Positions 26,516 through 46,875 of a stretch of DNA of 46,875 nt are shown here, one piece after another; the first letter of the stretch is position 1; every line of letters starts with the position of its first letter. Source of the DNA: Archangiaceae bacterium (GTDB taxonomy: Bacteria > Myxococcota > Myxococcia > Myxococcales > Myxococcaceae); NCBI GenBank assembly GCA_016879935.1, contig JAACJQ010000004.1, forward strand, positions 1 through 46,875. The letters run 5' to 3'. Position numbers and translations under genes: made by a program. The notes under the pieces are model-generated. The model was not told where the DNA came from. It saw only the letters and a list, made by a program, of their open reading frames with translations, and ran no database searches.

Positions 26516-28396
26516 TCACGGCAGCTCGAGCTGGAGCACCAGCCTTCGCGCCACGACCTTCGAGGCGGGGGTGGTGAGGTGCCCATAGTCCCACGTCGAG
26601 AGCACGAGCGGCTCGAGCGAGAGCCGCACCAGGCACGTCGCGTTGGCATCACACAGGGCGTCGAGGGCCGAGGTGAAGGCCGCTCCGCCAGTCGTCGAGA
26701 GCGCCCGGGTCTGCTGCTCGAAGGTGCGCTGCTCGGCGAGGCTCTCGGGCTCGAGCCGCTCGGGCACCACCTCGTCGCCGACCCACTTCGTCAGCGCCCA
26801 CGGCAGGCCGACGTTCCACTCGGGGGGTTGGCCCAGCACCATCACCTTCGTCGAGGGCAACATCTGCTTCAGGGCCAGCAGCGTCTGCGGCAGGTCGTGC
26901 GGCACGCCGTTCCACCTCGCGTGGAGCACCAGCACGTCGGGCCGGAGGGTTCTCAGCTCTTCCATGACGCCGGCGTTGGCGTCGCGGCAGACGGTGGTGC
27001 CGTGGCCGAAGAGGGGCGGGCAGCTCGCGCGCGTTCGTTGGCCGATGCGAAAGGTGGGGCGCTCGGCCTGAATGAGGCGCAGGCCCGCGGTGAGGCGCGC
27101 GGCGTAGGAGTCTCCCCAGACGACGACGAGCGGCCGCTCGGCCGGTGTGCGCTCGATGCACTCGTCGGCGTCGGGCCCGTGTTCGTCGTCGAGCAGCCAG
27201 CAGGTGCCCCAGCGCGCGTCGGTCTTGAAGTCGTAGTCATGCTCGAAGCGGGTGACCTTCGCGGCGAGCGGGCCACGCAGCGCCCACTGCTCGGGCGTGA
27301 AGGTGAGCACCATGGCAGCGAGCACGACGGCGGTGACGGCGCCCGAGGTGGCGAGCGCGAAGGCGACGCGGCGCGACTGCTTCGTGCGCACGGGCCGCTC
27401 GACGAAGCGGGCGGTCAGCCAGGCCAGCACCAACGCCGCAGCCACCAGCACGGGGGTGGCGACGGCGTGGCTCGAGGGCGGCAGCGAGAGGCGGCCGATG
27501 GTGAGCAGCGGCCAGTGCCAGAGGTAGAGCGGGTAGCTGACGAGCCCGGCGCCGACGACGAGCGGGGTCGAGAGCAGGCGGTTCACGCGACTGGAGCTGC
27601 CGGCGCCGATGACGAGCACCGTGCCGACGACGGGCAGCAGCGCGAAGGCTCCGGGGAAGGGCGTGCTCGCGTCGAGCCCGAGGGCCGAGCCAATGATGAA
27701 GACCACGCCTGCCACGCTGGCGAGCTGCTTCGGGCCGCTCGTCGAGGGAGAGGGGGAGGCGAAGAGGGAGAGCAACACGCCGGCGAGCAGCTCCCACGCG
27801 CGCGTCATCGGCAGGAAGTAGGCCCAGCGCGCGCTGGCCCGGGTGAGCGCGACACAGAGCACGAACGAACCGAGCGCCGCGACGATGACGAGCGGCCGAG
27901 TCCACCGCGGGGCGGCGCGGGCGACGAGCGCGCCGACGGGCACGAGCAGGTAGAACTGTTCTTCGACGCTCAGAGACCACAGGTGGAGCAACGGCTTCAC
28001 CTCGGCAGCGGCGTCGAAGTACCCGCCCTGCGTCGCGATGAGCAGGTTCGCGCTCAGGCCCAGTGACGCGGCCGCGTGCGAGGCGGTCAGCGCCAGCAAC
28101 GTGGGCGAGAAGCGCCACGCCGCGAAGCCCAGCGTCGCTCCCACCACGACGAGCAGCGCGGGGGCGAGCCGGTTCACCCGGCGAAAGAAGAAGTCGACGA
28201 CGCGGAAGGTGCCGGCCGCACGCTGCCGCTGCACCAGGCCCGTGACGACGAAGCCCGAGATGACGAAGAAGACGTCGACGCCGACGTAGCCGCCCGGGAG
28301 CAGGCGGGGCCATGCGTGAAAGAGCACGACGAGCAGCACCGCCAGGCCGCGCAGGCCGTCGATGTCTCGTCGATGTGACCCGGGTGCCGCGCTCAC
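26516..28396 (-). CDS. OafA/YrhL-type membrane acyltransferase with C-terminal SGNH domain
   Basis: This encodes 626 residues. The N-terminal half (about 1-380) is an acyltransferase-3 domain with many transmembrane helices. It includes the conserved DIDGLRGLAVLLVVLFHAWP start (Arg16 and His27, the R-x10-H pattern), VDVFFVISGFVVTGL, LLHLWSLSVEEQFYLLVP and VSYPLYLWHWPLL. The C-terminal part (about 400-626) is a periplasmic SGNH-like domain with the nucleophile motif VVVWGDSYAARLT. A late segment, WDYGHLTTPASKVVARR, carries a His consistent with the DxxH block. Such fusions O-acetylate or otherwise acylate exported polysaccharides such as O-antigen or peptidoglycan. The acceptor is unknown. It is followed downstream by the small 66-residue ORF and preceded by the protease gene 44 bp away. 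Confidence 0.92.
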   Translation of the reverse strand: MSAAPGSHRRDIDGLRGLAVLLVVLFHAWPRLLPGGYVGVDVFFVISGFVVTGLVQRQRAAGTFRVVDFFFRRVNRLAPALLVVVGATLGFAAWRFSPTLLALTASHAAASLGLSANLLIATQGGYFDAAAEVKPLLHLWSLSVEEQFYLLVPVGALVARAAPRWTRPLVIVAALGSFVLCVALTRASARWAYFLPMTRAWELLAGVLLSLFASPSPSTSGPKQLASVAGVVFIIGSALGLDASTPFPGAFALLPVVGTVLVIGAGSSSRVNRLLSTPLVVGAGLVSYPLYLWHWPLLTIGRLSLPPSSHAVATPVLVAAALVLAWLTARFVERPVRTKQSRRVAFALATSGAVTAVVLAAMVLTFTPEQWALRGPLAAKVTRFEHDYDFKTDARWGTCWLLDDEHGPDADECIERTPAERPLVVVWGDSYAARLTAGLRLIQAERPTFRIGQRTRASCPPLFGHGTTVCRDANAGVMEELRTLRPDVLVLHARWNGVPHDLPQTLLALKQMLPSTKVMVLGQPPEWNVGLPWALTKWVGDEVVPERLEPESLAEQRTFEQQTRALSTTGGAAFTSALDALCDANATCLVRLSLEPLVLSTWDYGHLTTPASKVVARRLVLQLELP

Positions 28397-34154: not shown

Positions 34155-39371
<5,217 letters not shown>

Positions 39372-39488: not shown

Positions 39489-40547
39489 TCAGCGCAGCTG
39501 ACAGTCGAGAACATGCGGCTCGAAGACGCTGCCAATCAGCGTTCGGCCACTCCCCAGCGGCACCGCGACGCTCGAGCCCGAGAGCAGCGCGCCGTCGTCG
39601 AGGGCCACGTCGCCGAGCTCGAACGCGCCGTTCGTGTACGTCGCGCGCAGCACCTGCGACGGCGAGTGGTGCGCCGGGTCTTTCGCGTGCCCGAGGAACT
39701 CGAGCATCTTCGGGTGGGCGCCGATGAAGAGCGCGCCGTCGTCGCCGATGGAGATGTTGTCGAGCCCCGCCTGCGTCATCAGCGCAGCGCGCTCGGTGAG
39801 CGCTCCCGTCGCGGCGTCACGTGAGAACGCGAGCAGGCGGCGGCCCGTCGTCTCCGACACGAACACCGTCGCTCCGTCTCTCGAGACCGCCACCCCGTTC
39901 GCGTAGCGCAGGCCCGACACCGCGACGCTCGCCTTCGTGCCGTCGAAGAAGCCCAGGCCCGACCACGGCATTCTCGCGAACGTCTCCACCACCCGGCCGA
40001 AGGTGCCCGCGCGCGTGCCGGCGTCGATGGTGACGTAGAACTGCTCGGGCCCGACGGGCGCGACGTCGTTCAAGCTGACGAACTCGGGCGCCTCCACCGT
40101 GCGCACGTGTTTGAGCGTCGGGCCGTCGAGCACGTCGAAGAGCTCCACCGTGCTCGAGGTGCGCGTCGGGTGGTTGACGACGAAGAGGCGCTTGAGGCCG
40201 TCACGAACGAACAGGCCGAGGCCATGCGGGTGCAGCGCCTGAAGGTCGTGCGGCACCGGCTTCGGAGCGCCCTTCGCCGCCACGTCCCACGAGAAGATGA
40301 CGCCGGGCTTCGGCGCGCCGGCCTCCATCGCGCGGAAGTCGTTGCTCGAGATGAACGCGAGGCCCGTCGACGCATCGAAGACGAGGTCTTCGGCGCCGGT
40401 GAAGCCAGCCACCTTCGTGCACTGCTCGAAGCCGTGAGGCGCCAGCGTTCGAAAGGCTCCCGCGTCGGCGAGGGTGTCGAGCACGAGGCCCACGACGGCG
40501 AGCAGGAGGACCACGACTGCCACGAGCACGATGCGTCGACGCGACAT
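39489..40547 (-). CDS. Paraoxonase (PON)-like arylesterase/lactonase, membrane-anchored
   Basis: This encodes 352 residues; ATG 40547 is chosen over the GTG at 40565. The N-terminal hydrophobic helix (VLVAVVVLLLAVVGLVL) may be retained as an anchor. The propeller carries key residues of animal paraoxonase 1 in order. They are Glu53 and Asp54 in GAEDLVF, His108 in HPHGLGLF (PON1 His115), His126 in VVNHP (His134), Asn160-Asp161 in SLNDVAPVGPEQFY, Asn217 in YANGVAVS, Asp263-Asn264 in LDNISIGDDG, and Cys43/Cys349 matching the PON1 disulfide. The end GSVFEPHVLDCQL also matches the family. PONs hydrolyse lactones and aryl esters with calcium; acyl-homoserine lactone cleavage is possible. It is divergent from the giant Ig protein gene across 170 bp. 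Confidence 0.88.
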   Translation of the reverse strand: MSRRRIVLVAVVVLLLAVVGLVLDTLADAGAFRTLAPHGFEQCTKVAGFTGAEDLVFDASTGLAFISSNDFRAMEAGAPKPGVIFSWDVAAKGAPKPVPHDLQALHPHGLGLFVRDGLKRLFVVNHPTRTSSTVELFDVLDGPTLKHVRTVEAPEFVSLNDVAPVGPEQFYVTIDAGTRAGTFGRVVETFARMPWSGLGFFDGTKASVAVSGLRYANGVAVSRDGATVFVSETTGRRLLAFSRDAATGALTERAALMTQAGLDNISIGDDGALFIGAHPKMLEFLGHAKDPAHHSPSQVLRATYTNGAFELGDVALDDGALLSGSSVAVPLGSGRTLIGSVFEPHVLDCQLR

Positions 40548-40717
40548 GGCCGGCGAACCGACCACGACTCGCCTCCCGGGTCACGAACCCAGCCACGAAT
40601 GTGACGAAGGGTGTGCACCGACACGCGCTCCTCGAACGCAACCGGCAAGGTTCGCTGGTGATCGGCGCTGGCCGCCGAATCGCAATCGGGACCCACAACT
40701 TCTCTTCGAGGGTCTCC

Positions 40718-43700
40718 ATGGACCGCACCACTGCACGCCTGGCGGCACTGCTCGCCGGCGCCTTCTTCATCTCGTCGTCGTGCTCCGATTCTCTTCTGCC
40801 CCGGGGAGAGTCCGACTCGCCTCAGCACACCGCCGAAGCACTCTTCGTGAACTCCGGGTTCGAGACGGGCAACACCAGCAGCTGGACGGTGACGACGAAC
40901 CTGGTCGCCACGACGCCCGGCGTGCAGGTGTACCCCGTCACCGCCGAGTCGCAGCTGGGCCTGCGCGCGGGCGGCGTGCTGAAGACGAACGTGTACGACG
41001 CGGGCACGCCGTTCTCGCTCGTTCCGCCCGGCCTCACCGCGGCCGACCCGGTGCGCTTCCCCCGCTTCGGCAACTGGGCTGCCGTCGTGAACGAGATGGG
41101 CGCGCAGTACAACGCGAACCGCATCACGCAGTCGTCGGTGGTGACGACGGCCGACATCGACCCGGCCGACGGCCTCGTGCACGTGCGCTTCGTCGTGCTG
41201 CCGGTGCTCCAGAACCCCGGGCACTCGCTGCGTGAGCAGCCGTACTACTTCGTCACCATCACCAACACGACGAAGGGCACGACGCTCGCGAGCCGCTTCA
41301 ACTTCTCGAACGAGGCCGGCGTGCCGTGGCAGTCGACCGCGAACGGGCAGGTCGTCTTCACCGACTGGCTGCTGTTCGACCTGCCGCTGTCTCGTGGCGC
41401 CGTCAGCATCGGAGACACGCTCACGGCCACCGTCATCGCGGGTGGCTGCGCGCAGTCGGGCCACTGGGGTGAAGCCATCATCGACAGCTTCGGCTCGAGC
41501 ATTCCCGGGCTCGTCGTGTACGGCAGCGCGCCCGACAGCGTCGAGGCTGGCAGCGACTTTCAGTACACCTACCGCGTGCTCAACGGCTCGTCGGCGACGT
41601 CGACGGGCGCGAAGCTGACGGCGTACCTGCCGGCGGGCGTCACCTTCCGCAGCATCGACACGCCCGGCATCACCTGCACCATGCCCACCGTCGGCACGCG
41701 CGGCACCGTCGCCTGCGACCTGGGCGCCATCGCCGTCGGCGCGTCGACCAACGTGAAGGTGACGGTGCGCGCTGACGCCACGGCCACGGGCGCGATTCGG
41801 CACGGCTGGTACTACAGCCAGTCGAACCAGGAGCAGCCGCTCACGGGCCCGCTCATCACCACCAACGTCACCACTGGCGGCACCGCGGCGTACGTGAACC
41901 TCGTCACCACCGTCGACGACGCGGCCGCCTCGGTCATGTGGAACCAGCACGTCACCTGGAGCATCACCGTTCGCAACGCGGGGCCCGCGACGGCCACCAA
42001 CGCCCCCATCTCGTCGAACGCGCCGGCGCAGCTGACGAACCTGGCGTGGACGTGTGTGGGGCAGGGCGGCGGCGCGTGCGGCGCGGCGTCGGGCACCGGT
42101 GCGCTCTCGACGCTCGCGACGTTGCCATCGGGAGGAAGCGTCACCTACTCGCTCGAGGCCGACGTCATTCTCAGCACGGGCATCGGCGCCGTGAGCGTCA
42201 CGGCGTTCGCGGCGGCGCCTGCGGGCACGGTGGAGTCTGCGGCGCTCGACAACGGCGGCGGTGATGACGACACCATCGCCGGCACCATGCAGTACGTGAC
42301 GGTGACGCGCGCGGGCGCAGGCCTGGGCACCATCACCTCGACGCCGGCAGCCATCTCGTGCGGCGCGGGCTGCACGACGACGTCGAGCGGCTTCGGCGTG
42401 GGCACCAGCGTGACGCTCCAGGCGACGCCGGCGACGGGCTCGGTGTTCGCAGGGTTCAGCGGCGGCACCTGCTCGGGCACCAGCGCGTGCACCTTCACCG
42501 TCACCAGCGGGCAGGCCGTCACTGCGACGTTCGACCGCAACCCCATCGCCATCACGAGCCCGTCGACCGCGCGCGCGGCCGTCGGTCGCCCGTTCTCGTT
42601 CACCGTCACCGGCCTCGGCACGCCGCCCATCACCTTCGGCGCGACGAACCTGCCGGCGTGGCTGTCGTTCGACGCGCAGACGCAGGTGCTCTCGGGCACC
42701 GCTCCCTCGGCGGGAACGTTCACGGCCGACCTCTCGGCGACCGACGTGAACGGCACCGCGACGCAGACGCTCACCATCACTGCGGGCCTGGCGCCCACCA
42801 TCACTTCGGCGCTGACGTACACGCTCGCGGCCGCTGGCACCGCGTGGGGCACCATCGACGTGAATGCCTCCGGCGCGACGCCGATTCAGTTCAACGCGAG
42901 CAACATGCCGGGCACCGTCTATTTCAACAGCACGACTGGCGTGTTCGCCGGGAACGCGGGCGCGGTGGGCGTCTACAACGTGCCCGTCATCGCGACGAAC
43001 GCGTTCGGCTCCGACTACAAGGTGCTCGCCATCTCGGTCGGCGGAGCGCCCGTCATCACCTCGCCCCTCACCGCGTCGTCCACCGTCGGCAACGCCTTCA
43101 CGTACACGCTGACGGCGACTGGAACCGCGACCATCGTGCTCGGCGCGTCGTCGCTGCCCTCGTGGGCCACGTTCACGGCTGCGACTGGCGTCATCAGTGG
43201 AACCCCGACGAGCGCGGGTACGCTCTCCATCGGGCTCTCGGCCACCAACGGCGTCGGCAGCAGCAGCCAGACGCTCGTGCTCACCGTCGACGGGCCGGCC
43301 GTCATCACCAGCAACGTCACCGCGAGCGGCACGGCGGGCCAGGCCTTCACGTACTCGCTCACCGCCGAAGGCACGGCGCCCATCACCCGCAGCATGTCGG
43401 GGCTCCCGGCCTGGCTCTCGTTCGACGCGAACGCCGGGCTGCTCTCGGGCACACCGCCCGCAGCGGGCACCTTCACCGTCACGATGGACGCGGCGAACGG
43501 CATCGGGAGCGACTCGAAGACGCTCACCATCATCATCGCAGCGCCGCCGCCGACACCGACGCCACCCGCCATCACGAGCGCGCTCACTGCGAGCGGCAGC
43601 TCGGGCGTCGCCTGCACGTACACCATCACCGCGAGCGGCCAGGTGCCCATGACGTTCAGCGCGACGGGGCTGCCCGCGTGGGCGAGCATCGACGCGAACA

Positions 43701-46700
43701 CCGGCGTCATCTCGGGAACGCCGTCGGGCGGCGGCAGCACGTCGGTCACCATCGGCGCGACCAACGCGCTGGGCGCCGACTCGAAGACGCTCGTCATCTC
43801 CATTCAGGCGCCGCCGCAGGTCACCTCGGCGCTCACCGCCACCGGCCAGATTGGCGTGCCCTTCTCGTACACGCTGACGGCGACGGGCAGCGGCGTCATC
43901 ACCCTGAGCGCGAGCAACCTGCCGGCGTGGGCGTCGTTCGACTCGGGGACTGGCGTCATCAGTGGCACCCCGACGGCCGACGGCTCGTTCTCGGTCAGCA
44001 TCGCGGCGTCGAACGGCGCAGGCACGGATTCGGAGTCGCTCGTCATCACCATCGAGACGCCAGCGCTCGTCACCTCGGCGCTCTCGGCCGACGGCATCGT
44101 CGGTGACGCGTTCTCGTACACGGTCACTGCGTCGGGCAGCGCGCCCGTCAGCACCAGCGCGAGCAACCTGCCGGCGTGGGCGTCGTTCAACGCGGGTGTC
44201 ATCAGCGGCACGCCGACGGCGACGGGGTCGTTCTCCATCACGCTCGGCGCGTCGAACGCCGCGGGCACGGATTCGAAGACGTTGACGCTCACCATTCGCG
44301 CCCGTCCCGTCATCACCTCGTCGCTCACCGCCGACGCCATCGTCGGAGACGCGTTCAGCTACACCCTCACCGCGAGCGGCACCGCGCCCGTCACGCTCAA
44401 CGCAGGCAGCCTGCCGGCGTGGGCGTCGTTCAACGCGGGCGTCATCTCGGGCACGCCGACCGCTGCGGGCGTCGTCTCCATCTCGCTCTCGGCCAGCAAC
44501 GGTGTGGGCTCCGACGCGAAGACGCTCGTCGTCACGGTGCGCGCGCGACCGGCCATCACGTCGGCGCTCGTCGCCTCTGGCGTCGTCGGCCAGCCGTTCT
44601 CGTACACGCTGACGTCGAGTGGAACGGCGCCGGTCTCGCTCTCTGCGAGCAGCCTGCCCTCGTGGGCCTCGTTCAGCGCGGGTGTCATCAGTGGCACGCC
44701 GACGGCCGACGGCTCCTTCAGCATCTCGCTCGGTGCGTCGAACGCGGCGGGCAGTGACTCGCAGACGCTCGTGCTGACGGTGCGCTCGGTGCCGGTCATC
44801 ACCTCGGCGCTCGCGGTCGACGCCATCGTCGGAGACGCGTTCAGCTACACGCTCACCGCCAGCGGCACGGCGCCAGTCACGCTCTCGGCCTCGAGCCTTC
44901 CGGCGTGGGCGTCGTTCAACGCGGGTGTCATCAGCGGCACGCCGACGGTCGATGGCGTCGTCTCCATCTCGCTCGGCGCGAGCAACGGCGTCGGGTCTGA
45001 CTCGAAGACGCTCGTCGTCACGGTGCGTGCGCGGCCGGCCATCACGTCGGCGCTCGTGGCCTCTGGCGTCGTCGGCCAGGCGTTCTCGTACACGGTGACC
45101 GCCAGCGGAACGTCGCCGCGTTCGCTCTCGGCGAGCGGGCTGCCCGCGTGGGCGTCGTTCAACGCGGGCACCGGCGTCATCTCGGGAACACCGAACGCCG
45201 AAGGCGCGACCTCCATCACGCTCGGCGTGTCGAACGCTGCAGGCAGTGACTCGCAGACGCTCGTGCTGACCGTTCGCTCCGTGCCCAGCATCACCTCGGC
45301 GCTCGCGGTCGACGCCGTCGTCGGAGACGCGTTCAGCTACACGCTCACCTCGAGCGGCACGGCGCCAGTCTCGCTCTCGGCTTCGAGCCTTCCGGCGTGG
45401 GCTTCCTTCAACGCGGGCGTCATCAGCGGCACGCCGACGGTCGATGGCGTCGTCTCCATCTCCCTCGGTGCGAGCAACGGCGTCGGCGCGGACTCGAAGA
45501 CCCTCGTCGTCACGGTGCGCGCGCGCCCGGCCATCACGTCTGCGGGCACGGCTGCTGGCGTCGTCGGTCAACCCTTCTCGTACACGCTGACCGCCAGCGG
45601 CACGGCGCCCGTCACGCGCTCCGTCAGTGGTCTACCGGCCTGGGCGAGCTTCAACGCGAGCACCGGCGTCATCAGCGGCACGCCGACGGCCGACGGCTCC
45701 TTCACCATCGCGCTGGGCGCCTCGAACGCGGCAGGCGCTGCGTCGGGCTCGCTCGTCATCACGGTCGGCTCCACGCCGGTCATCACCTCGGCGCTCACGG
45801 CCGATGGTGTCGTCGGTCAGGTCTTCTCGTACCGCTTCACCGCGAACGGCACCGAGCCGCTGAACCTCTCACTCTCGGGTCTGCCGTCGTGGGCGAGCTT
45901 CGCGAACGGCGTCATCTCGGGCGTGCCCGACGTCGAAGGCACGTTCAGCGTCACGCTCACCGCGAGCAACGGCTCGGGGGTCGACCAGCAGACGCTCACC
46001 ATCACCTCGCGGAAAGCGCCGGTCATCACCTCGCCGCTCACCTTCGCGGCCGTCGTCGGCCAGGCCATGACCTACCAACTGGTCAGCACGGGCACCGCGC
46101 CGCTCGCGCTCTCGGTGAGCGGGCTCCCGTCGTGGGCGTCGTTCGACCCGCAGACGGGAGTGCTCTCGGGCACGCCCGTCTCGGAGGGTGAGGTTCGGGT
46201 GACGTTGCAGTCGTCGAACCTCGCCGGCGCCGATGCTCGCGAGCTCGTCATCGCCGTGCGCACCACGCCCGTCATCACCTCGGCGCTCACGGCCACCGCG
46301 GTGACCGGCGATGCCTTCAGCTACACGCTCACGGCGTCGGGCACACCGTTCATCACCCGCTCCGTCACCGGCTTGCCGTCGTGGCTGCAGTTCGACTCGA
46401 ACACGGGCGTGTTGAGCGGAACGCCGACGGAGGACGGCGTCTTCACCATCGGCCTCGTCGCCACCAGCGGCGTGGGCACCGACACGAAGTCACTGCAGGT
46501 CACCGTTCGCACCCGGCCGCGCATCACCTCGGCGCTCGCCATCGACGCGGTCGTGGGAGACGCGCTGTCCTTCGCGCTCACGCTCGAGGGCACCGAGTTC
46601 ATCACGGTACAGGCGGTCAGCCTGCCGGCGTGGCTCGACTTCGACCAGAACACGCGCACGCTCTCGGGCACGCCGCCGGCCGAAGGCATCACCAGCATCG

Positions 46701-46875
46701 TCTTCGGAGCGTCGAACCTCGCGGGCACCGACGTGAAGACCATCGTCATCACCGCGCGCGCTCGGCCCGTCATCACCAACCTGCTCGAGGTCTTCGCGGT
46801 CGCAGGCTCGCCCTTCTCGTTCAGGCTCACTGCCACGGGGACGGCGCCGCTCTCGTTCAGCGCGGGCATGCTGCC
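40718..46875 (+). CDS. Giant surface protein with putative-Ig (He_PIG) repeats, 3' end outside window
   Basis: The frame is open from ATG 40718 to the window edge (2,052 codons, no stop); GAGGG lies seven bases upstream. The signal sequence ends near a weak lipobox (ISSSC, Cys22). Residues about 45-260 form a jelly-roll-like domain beginning FVNSGFETGNTSSWTV. Two DUF11-like beta domains follow (about 270-370 and 395-490; e.g. VTWSITVRNAGPATATN). An InlB-B-repeat-like domain comes next at about 526-610 (GTITSTPAAISCGAGC; FSGGTCSGTSACTFTV). From residue 612 on there are 17 complete and one partial He_PIG repeats of 80-85 residues, each near ITSALTADGIVGDAFSYTLT then LPAWASFNAGVISGTPT. The architecture fits a long, extended adhesin or stalk. 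A C-terminal sorting signal, if any, is outside. Confidence 0.92.
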   Translation, partial: MDRTTARLAALLAGAFFISSSCSDSLLPRGESDSPQHTAEALFVNSGFETGNTSSWTVTTNLVATTPGVQVYPVTAESQLGLRAGGVLKTNVYDAGTPFSLVPPGLTAADPVRFPRFGNWAAVVNEMGAQYNANRITQSSVVTTADIDPADGLVHVRFVVLPVLQNPGHSLREQPYYFVTITNTTKGTTLASRFNFSNEAGVPWQSTANGQVVFTDWLLFDLPLSRGAVSIGDTLTATVIAGGCAQSGHWGEAIIDSFGSSIPGLVVYGSAPDSVEAGSDFQYTYRVLNGSSATSTGAKLTAYLPAGVTFRSIDTPGITCTMPTVGTRGTVACDLGAIAVGASTNVKVTVRADATATGAIRHGWYYSQSNQEQPLTGPLITTNVTTGGTAAYVNLVTTVDDAAASVMWNQHVTWSITVRNAGPATATNAPISSNAPAQLTNLAWTCVGQGGGACGAASGTGALSTLATLPSGGSVTYSLEADVILSTGIGAVSVTAFAAAPAGTVESAALDNGGGDDDTIAGTMQYVTVTRAGAGLGTITSTPAAISCGAGCTTTSSGFGVGTSVTLQATPATGSVFAGFSGGTCSGTSACTFTVTSGQAVTATFDRNPIAITSPSTARAAVGRPFSFTVTGLGTPPITFGATNLPAWLSFDAQTQVLSGTAPSAGTFTADLSATDVNGTATQTLTITAGLAPTITSALTYTLAAAGTAWGTIDVNASGATPIQFNASNMPGTVYFNSTTGVFAGNAGAVGVYNVPVIATNAFGSDYKVLAISVGGAPVITSPLTASSTVGNAFTYTLTATGTATIVLGASSLPSWATFTAATGVISGTPTSAGTLSIGLSATNGVGSSSQTLVLTVDGPAVITSNVTASGTAGQAFTYSLTAEGTAPITRSMSGLPAWLSFDANAGLLSGTPPAAGTFTVTMDAANGIGSDSKTLTIIIAAPPPTPTPPAITSALTASGSSGVACTYTITASGQVPMTFSATGLPAWASIDANTGVISGTPSGGGSTSVTIGATNALGADSKTLVISIQAPPQVTSALTATGQIGVPFSYTLTATGSGVITLSASNLPAWASFDSGTGVISGTPTADGSFSVSIAASNGAGTDSESLVITIETPALVTSALSADGIVGDAFSYTVTASGSAPVSTSASNLPAWASFNAGVISGTPTATGSFSITLGASNAAGTDSKTLTLTIRARPVITSSLTADAIVGDAFSYTLTASGTAPVTLNAGSLPAWASFNAGVISGTPTAAGVVSISLSASNGVGSDAKTLVVTVRARPAITSALVASGVVGQPFSYTLTSSGTAPVSLSASSLPSWASFSAGVISGTPTADGSFSISLGASNAAGSDSQTLVLTVRSVPVITSALAVDAIVGDAFSYTLTASGTAPVTLSASSLPAWASFNAGVISGTPTVDGVVSISLGASNGVGSDSKTLVVTVRARPAITSALVASGVVGQAFSYTVTASGTSPRSLSASGLPAWASFNAGTGVISGTPNAEGATSITLGVSNAAGSDSQTLVLTVRSVPSITSALAVDAVVGDAFSYTLTSSGTAPVSLSASSLPAWASFNAGVISGTPTVDGVVSISLGASNGVGADSKTLVVTVRARPAITSAGTAAGVVGQPFSYTLTASGTAPVTRSVSGLPAWASFNASTGVISGTPTADGSFTIALGASNAAGAASGSLVITVGSTPVITSALTADGVVGQVFSYRFTANGTEPLNLSLSGLPSWASFANGVISGVPDVEGTFSVTLTASNGSGVDQQTLTITSRKAPVITSPLTFAAVVGQAMTYQLVSTGTAPLALSVSGLPSWASFDPQTGVLSGTPVSEGEVRVTLQSSNLAGADARELVIAVRTTPVITSALTATAVTGDAFSYTLTASGTPFITRSVTGLPSWLQFDSNTGVLSGTPTEDGVFTIGLVATSGVGTDTKSLQVTVRTRPRITSALAIDAVVGDALSFALTLEGTEFITVQAVSLPAWLDFDQNTRTLSGTPPAEGITSIVFGASNLAGTDVKTIVITARARPVITNLLEVFAVAGSPFSFRLTATGTAPLSFSAGML
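42551..46875 (+). repeat. Tandem He_PIG-type Ig domain repeats (17 complete, 1 partial)
   Basis: Each unit begins with ITS and contains VGxxFSYTLTASGTAP, LPAWASF, VISGTPT and a closing TLVVTVRARP-like strand. Unit length is 243-258 bp. The second unit (from 42799) is the most diverged. The array continues past the right edge. Confidence 0.9.
44312..45532 (+). repeat. Higher-order two-domain repeat within the Ig array
   Basis: Adjacent Ig units alternate between an ITSALAVDAIVGDAF...VRARPA type (44312, 44798 and 45290) and an ITSALVASGVVGQPF...VRSVPV type (44555 and 45041). Units 44798-45040 and 45290-45532 are nearly identical, as are parts of 44555-44797 and 45041-45289. This points to recent duplication of a block of about 486-492 bp. 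The unit from 45533 again has the VGQPF type. Confidence 0.85.

Follow-up and report, generated by a model that had tools for sequence, protein, structure and literature searches.

Paraoxonases (PONs) have lactonase activity in common (PMC6995636), and in their chemistry calcium polarises the carbonyl of a lactone or ester, which is then attacked by activated water (PMC7766523, PMC7915308). Their calcium ligands and disulfide closure have been described (PMC7766523, PMC7915308, PMC6995636), and PON2 is described as a type II membrane protein (PMC7915308). Bacterial members are already known: judging by its title and by papers that cite it (PMC9937041, PMC6995636, PMC13144609), the work of Bar-Rogovsky et al. 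(2013, J Biol Chem 288:23914) linked bacterial PONs to homoserine lactonases. The window analysed here, a stretch of 46,875 nucleotides, encodes on its minus strand a 352-residue protein (39489-40547, stop included, ATG at 40547) that is likewise a PON-like bacterial protein, as far as that title and those citations allow the two to be likened. The PON studied in 2013 was reportedly alphaproteobacterial (Oceanicaulis), whereas that of the window is myxobacterial. What the locus adds is a well-supported PON member from a lineage in which the family is common; among so many homologues of this kind, a single gene carries only modest weight. SMP-30/regucalcin, Drp35, DFPase and strictosidine synthase, a group that includes calcium lactonases or phosphotriesterases, share the six-bladed propeller but match the window protein far less well in sequence and fold, and are not known to have the histidine pair or the cysteine pair of PONs.

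The window protein is a true bacterial member of the PON family and not just of the wider propeller superfamily. A phmmer search with the single sequence against all PDB sequences gave significant matches to chains of serum paraoxonase 1 (PON1) only (E 4.1e-30), with 101 identities in 307 aligned columns (33%). Residues 160-237 matched Pfam Arylesterase (PF01731) at 41 bits against a cut-off of 21.3, a domain also matched by 28 of 28 aligned homologues; no family was assigned in an NCBIfam search. A PON look-alike from another propeller family (SMP-30/gluconolactonase, strictosidine synthase-like or DFPase-like) would have the six-bladed propeller in common and would fit the weaker SMP-30 (Pfam SGL) match and the sub-threshold strictosidine synthase (Pfam Str_synth) match of the same protein. 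However, the profile built from the 28-homologue alignment reached an E-value of approximately 1e-65 for PON1, while regucalcin scored 2.6e-6 and Drp35 3e-5; no other family comes within 55 orders of magnitude of PON1.

The same ranking was seen in structure. An AlphaFold2 model built on the homologue alignment (mean pLDDT 92.4, pTM 0.91) has a mostly beta body preceded by a helix, and is predicted to have the six-bladed propeller of the PON1 fold with its N-terminal helix. The top ten Foldseek entries were all PON1, and VIA-align superposed the model on PON1 with a Z of 42.9 and 2.3 Å over 322 residues; strictosidine synthase, the second-ranking fold, had a Z of 28.6. This lead of 14 Z units supports placement in the PON family, and neither sequence, profile nor structure brings the protein closer to SMP-30 than to PON1. 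With the counterparts of His115/His134 and Cys42/Cys353 invariant as well, a look-alike from another family is barely credible. The preliminary description had called the gene a bacterial paraoxonase, an assignment on which sequence, profile, predicted structure and tree all agree.

Alignment with PON1 located Glu53 (catalytic calcium) and Asp54 (structural calcium), which bear the same numbers in both proteins (40386-40391; minus strand, as for all residues listed here), followed by His108 for PON1 His115 (40224-40226), His126 for His134 (40170-40172), Asn160 and Asp161 for Asn168 and Asp169 (40065-40070), Asn217 for Asn224 (39897-39899), and Asp263 and Asn264 for Asp269 and Asn270 (39756-39761). 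Of the two predicted disulfide partners, Cys43 (40419-40421) aligns with PON1 Cys42 in the same way, and the profile alignment, at its C-terminal end, pairs Cys349 (39501-39503) with Cys353. Across the 28-sequence alignment, for which homologues were taken from 27 other Myxococcota genomes and in which the most distant homologue is 29% identical to the first sequence, the calcium ligands, both histidines, the counterpart of PON1 H285 and both cysteines are invariant. The catalytic calcium ligands of PON1 (E53, N168, N224, D269 and N270) thus appear as a complete set, and the structural calcium set (D54, D169 and the main-chain carbonyl of residue 117) would be made up of Asp54, Asp161 and, by its backbone only, Leu110. 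Ten PON1 residues had been listed in the preliminary description, all of which align with PON1 and are invariant; the Cys42-Cys353 pair that it also named is present as Cys43 and Cys349, probably joined in a disulfide.

The likeness to PON1 (PDB 1v04, 3srg) therefore takes in the fold, all calcium ligands, the histidine pair, H285, both cysteines and an N-terminal hydrophobic helix. Unlike PON1, the window PON has no free Cys284 (Ala277 at this position) and no N253 or N324 glycosylation sites, and its pocket differs by Y71 to F, F222 to Y, L240 to T, M196 to T and H184 to A (Ala176), so its substrate range may differ too. Having the PON1 active site in full and both cysteines but none of the PON1 glycosylation sites, such a bacterial PON might serve in the laboratory as a more convenient substitute for human PONs.

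The protein begins with MSRRR, followed by a long hydrophobic stretch whose last residues are TLADAGAF. In the model this region forms a helix at residues 3-28 (40464-40541, minus strand), part of which superposes on PON1, as the superposition begins at model residues 17-21. Most homologues retain the hydrophobic helix, and the DAG motif is largely kept too, whereas many homologues have Arg, His, Trp, Asn or Lys at position -3 of the sole plausible AXA-like signal-peptidase site, and general cleavage by signal peptidase is therefore unlikely. From a conserved helix without a conserved cleavage site, we infer a type II inner-membrane protein with its propeller in the periplasm, much as an uncleaved N-terminal helix had been proposed beforehand. 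The positive residues preceding the helix suggest an N-in, C-out orientation, and an oxidising periplasmic setting would fit the conservation of both cysteines. Human PON2 has a similar anatomy by description but is animal and glycosylated, and PON1 is found on HDL whereas the window PON would sit at a bacterial membrane. Twin-arginine export, considered for the SRRR start, was dropped because the motif is missing in many homologues. Translation may start upstream of the ATG, at an in-frame GTG (40565) that would add six residues (40548-40565, minus strand) for a 358-residue PON, since a Shine-Dalgarno-like GGGAGG (40573-40578, minus strand) is read seven bases before it. A scan of the gene's surroundings for sigma-70 promoter and terminator consensus sequences found none, which says little in this GC-rich genome.

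The reading that we favour, with moderate confidence, is that of a membrane-anchored periplasmic PON acting as a calcium-dependent hydrolase of hydrophobic lactones, foreign acyl-homoserine lactones (AHLs) included. The six-bladed beta-propeller would be tethered to the inner membrane by its uncleaved helix, facing the periplasm, with a disulfide between Cys43 and Cys349 closing it. Asp54, Asp161 and the Leu110 backbone would bind a structural calcium that stabilises the fold, and a catalytic calcium held by Glu53, Asn160, Asn217, Asp263 and Asn264 would polarise the lactone or ester carbonyl for attack by water. The His108/His126 pair would activate this water, and one of the calcium-bound acids, either Glu53 or Asp263, might act as backup base. 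Propellers often serve as scaffolds, and a calcium-binding propeller that has lost catalysis and taken on a binding or scaffolding role can also be envisaged. This seems to us very unlikely, given that 28 sequences, down to 29% identity, show no change in any catalytic calcium ligand or in either histidine. No published activity for the window PON or its close homologues was found in the literature examined.

With regard to physiology, the gene most likely encodes a broad lactonase/esterase for foreign lactones, AHLs of other bacteria among them. Its native reaction is most likely the hydrolysis of hydrophobic lactones, with which it would serve a myxobacterium in scavenging, quorum quenching or detoxification. 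In seven genomes including the source, no LuxI synthase was found, a weak absence because the LuxI control matched nowhere, and no autoinducer-binding LuxR domain was found either, the LuxR control being positive in E. coli. Foreign AHLs are therefore the likelier substrate than own AHLs. Myxococcus xanthus produces no AHLs yet responds to those of its prey (PMC5348527), and in Archangium gephyra a solo AHL synthase has been described (PMC7862692). Destroying AHLs would seem counterproductive for a predator that profits from sensing prey AHLs, and no conserved neighbours name a pathway.

These last points can be set beside a different substrate: the enzyme could be a general esterase or detoxifying lactonase for natural-product or other lactones, protecting for example against the cell's own or rivals' lactone antibiotics, with AHLs hydrolysed incidentally. 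PONs are broad and promiscuous, and their native substrates are unsettled (PMC9937041, PMC6995636); the altered pocket and the failure to find LuxI or LuxR parts in the genome, the former with a control that matched nowhere, would be in line with such a role. On the other hand, biosynthetic or transport genes do not adjoin the gene in any conserved manner, and we consider such an enzyme possible but on the whole doubtful compared with the reading favoured above.

The surroundings of the gene differ from locus to locus. Downstream by 117 bases and on the same strand lies a gene for a 1738-residue sensor (34155-39371, minus strand), whose single chain holds a partial protein kinase domain together with AAA_16 ATPase, GAF, HisKA/HATPase and receiver domains. 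Upstream and divergent, a giant Ig-like repeat surface protein of at least 2052 residues (40718-46875, plus strand) runs off the contig end and has a lipoprotein-like start, DUF11 stretches and 15 He_PIG Ig-like repeats. Among six related loci and one more distant locus, no conserved neighbours were found; these loci share the PON gene alone, which therefore behaves as a solitary gene. Elsewhere in the window, an acyltransferase-3 fused to an SGNH domain (26519-28396, minus strand) is typical of surface-polysaccharide acylation.

Searches of 195 genomes of the phylum with Pfam Arylesterase gave matches in 36, mostly from one large genus of the same family, and the source genome carries one PON copy. 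The homologues of six relatives (five from the same genus and one from the same family) are 59-66% identical to the window PON. A single-sequence scan of genome contigs returned one relative, which reflects the limit of that search and not the spread of the family. Phage relatives were not found, and plasmid relatives were weak matches only, in Azospirillum and Sphingobium. The rarity outside animals implied by the preliminary description was overstated, as bacterial PONs have been published and clear homologues occur in many genomes of the same family.

Trees were built from PON1 (the sole animal sequence), homologues from myxobacteria and propellers that are more distantly related. The first tree set a gluconolactonase on a very long branch (L052) within the PONs and was rebuilt without it. 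In both trees, a supported clade (96/97 and 97/99) unites the window PON, its same-genus relatives and L007. PON1 branched within or next to the bacterial PONs, close to L016, which comes from a different family of the phylum; a single clade of bacterial PONs without PON1 was not rejected by the AU test (p 0.36), and long branches meet at this point. With one animal sequence, these trees say nothing firm on the origin of animal PONs. The window PON nevertheless opens the question of whether predatory bacteria turn PONs on prey signals. The bolder combined proposal, that a membrane-displayed myxobacterial PON dismantles prey quorum signals in predation and that animal PONs arose within bacterial diversity, is in our estimation unlikely.

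Two further kinds of PON-like sequence were seen among the relatives. One relative has a second, short PON-like fragment (L011, G002:C391:11165-11488; approximately 107 residues matched), which looks like a decayed or partial duplicate. Two same-family relatives with large genomes contain divergent propellers (L009 and L010) that are approximately 29-30% identical over part of the PON and retain the NH, NSV and DN motifs.
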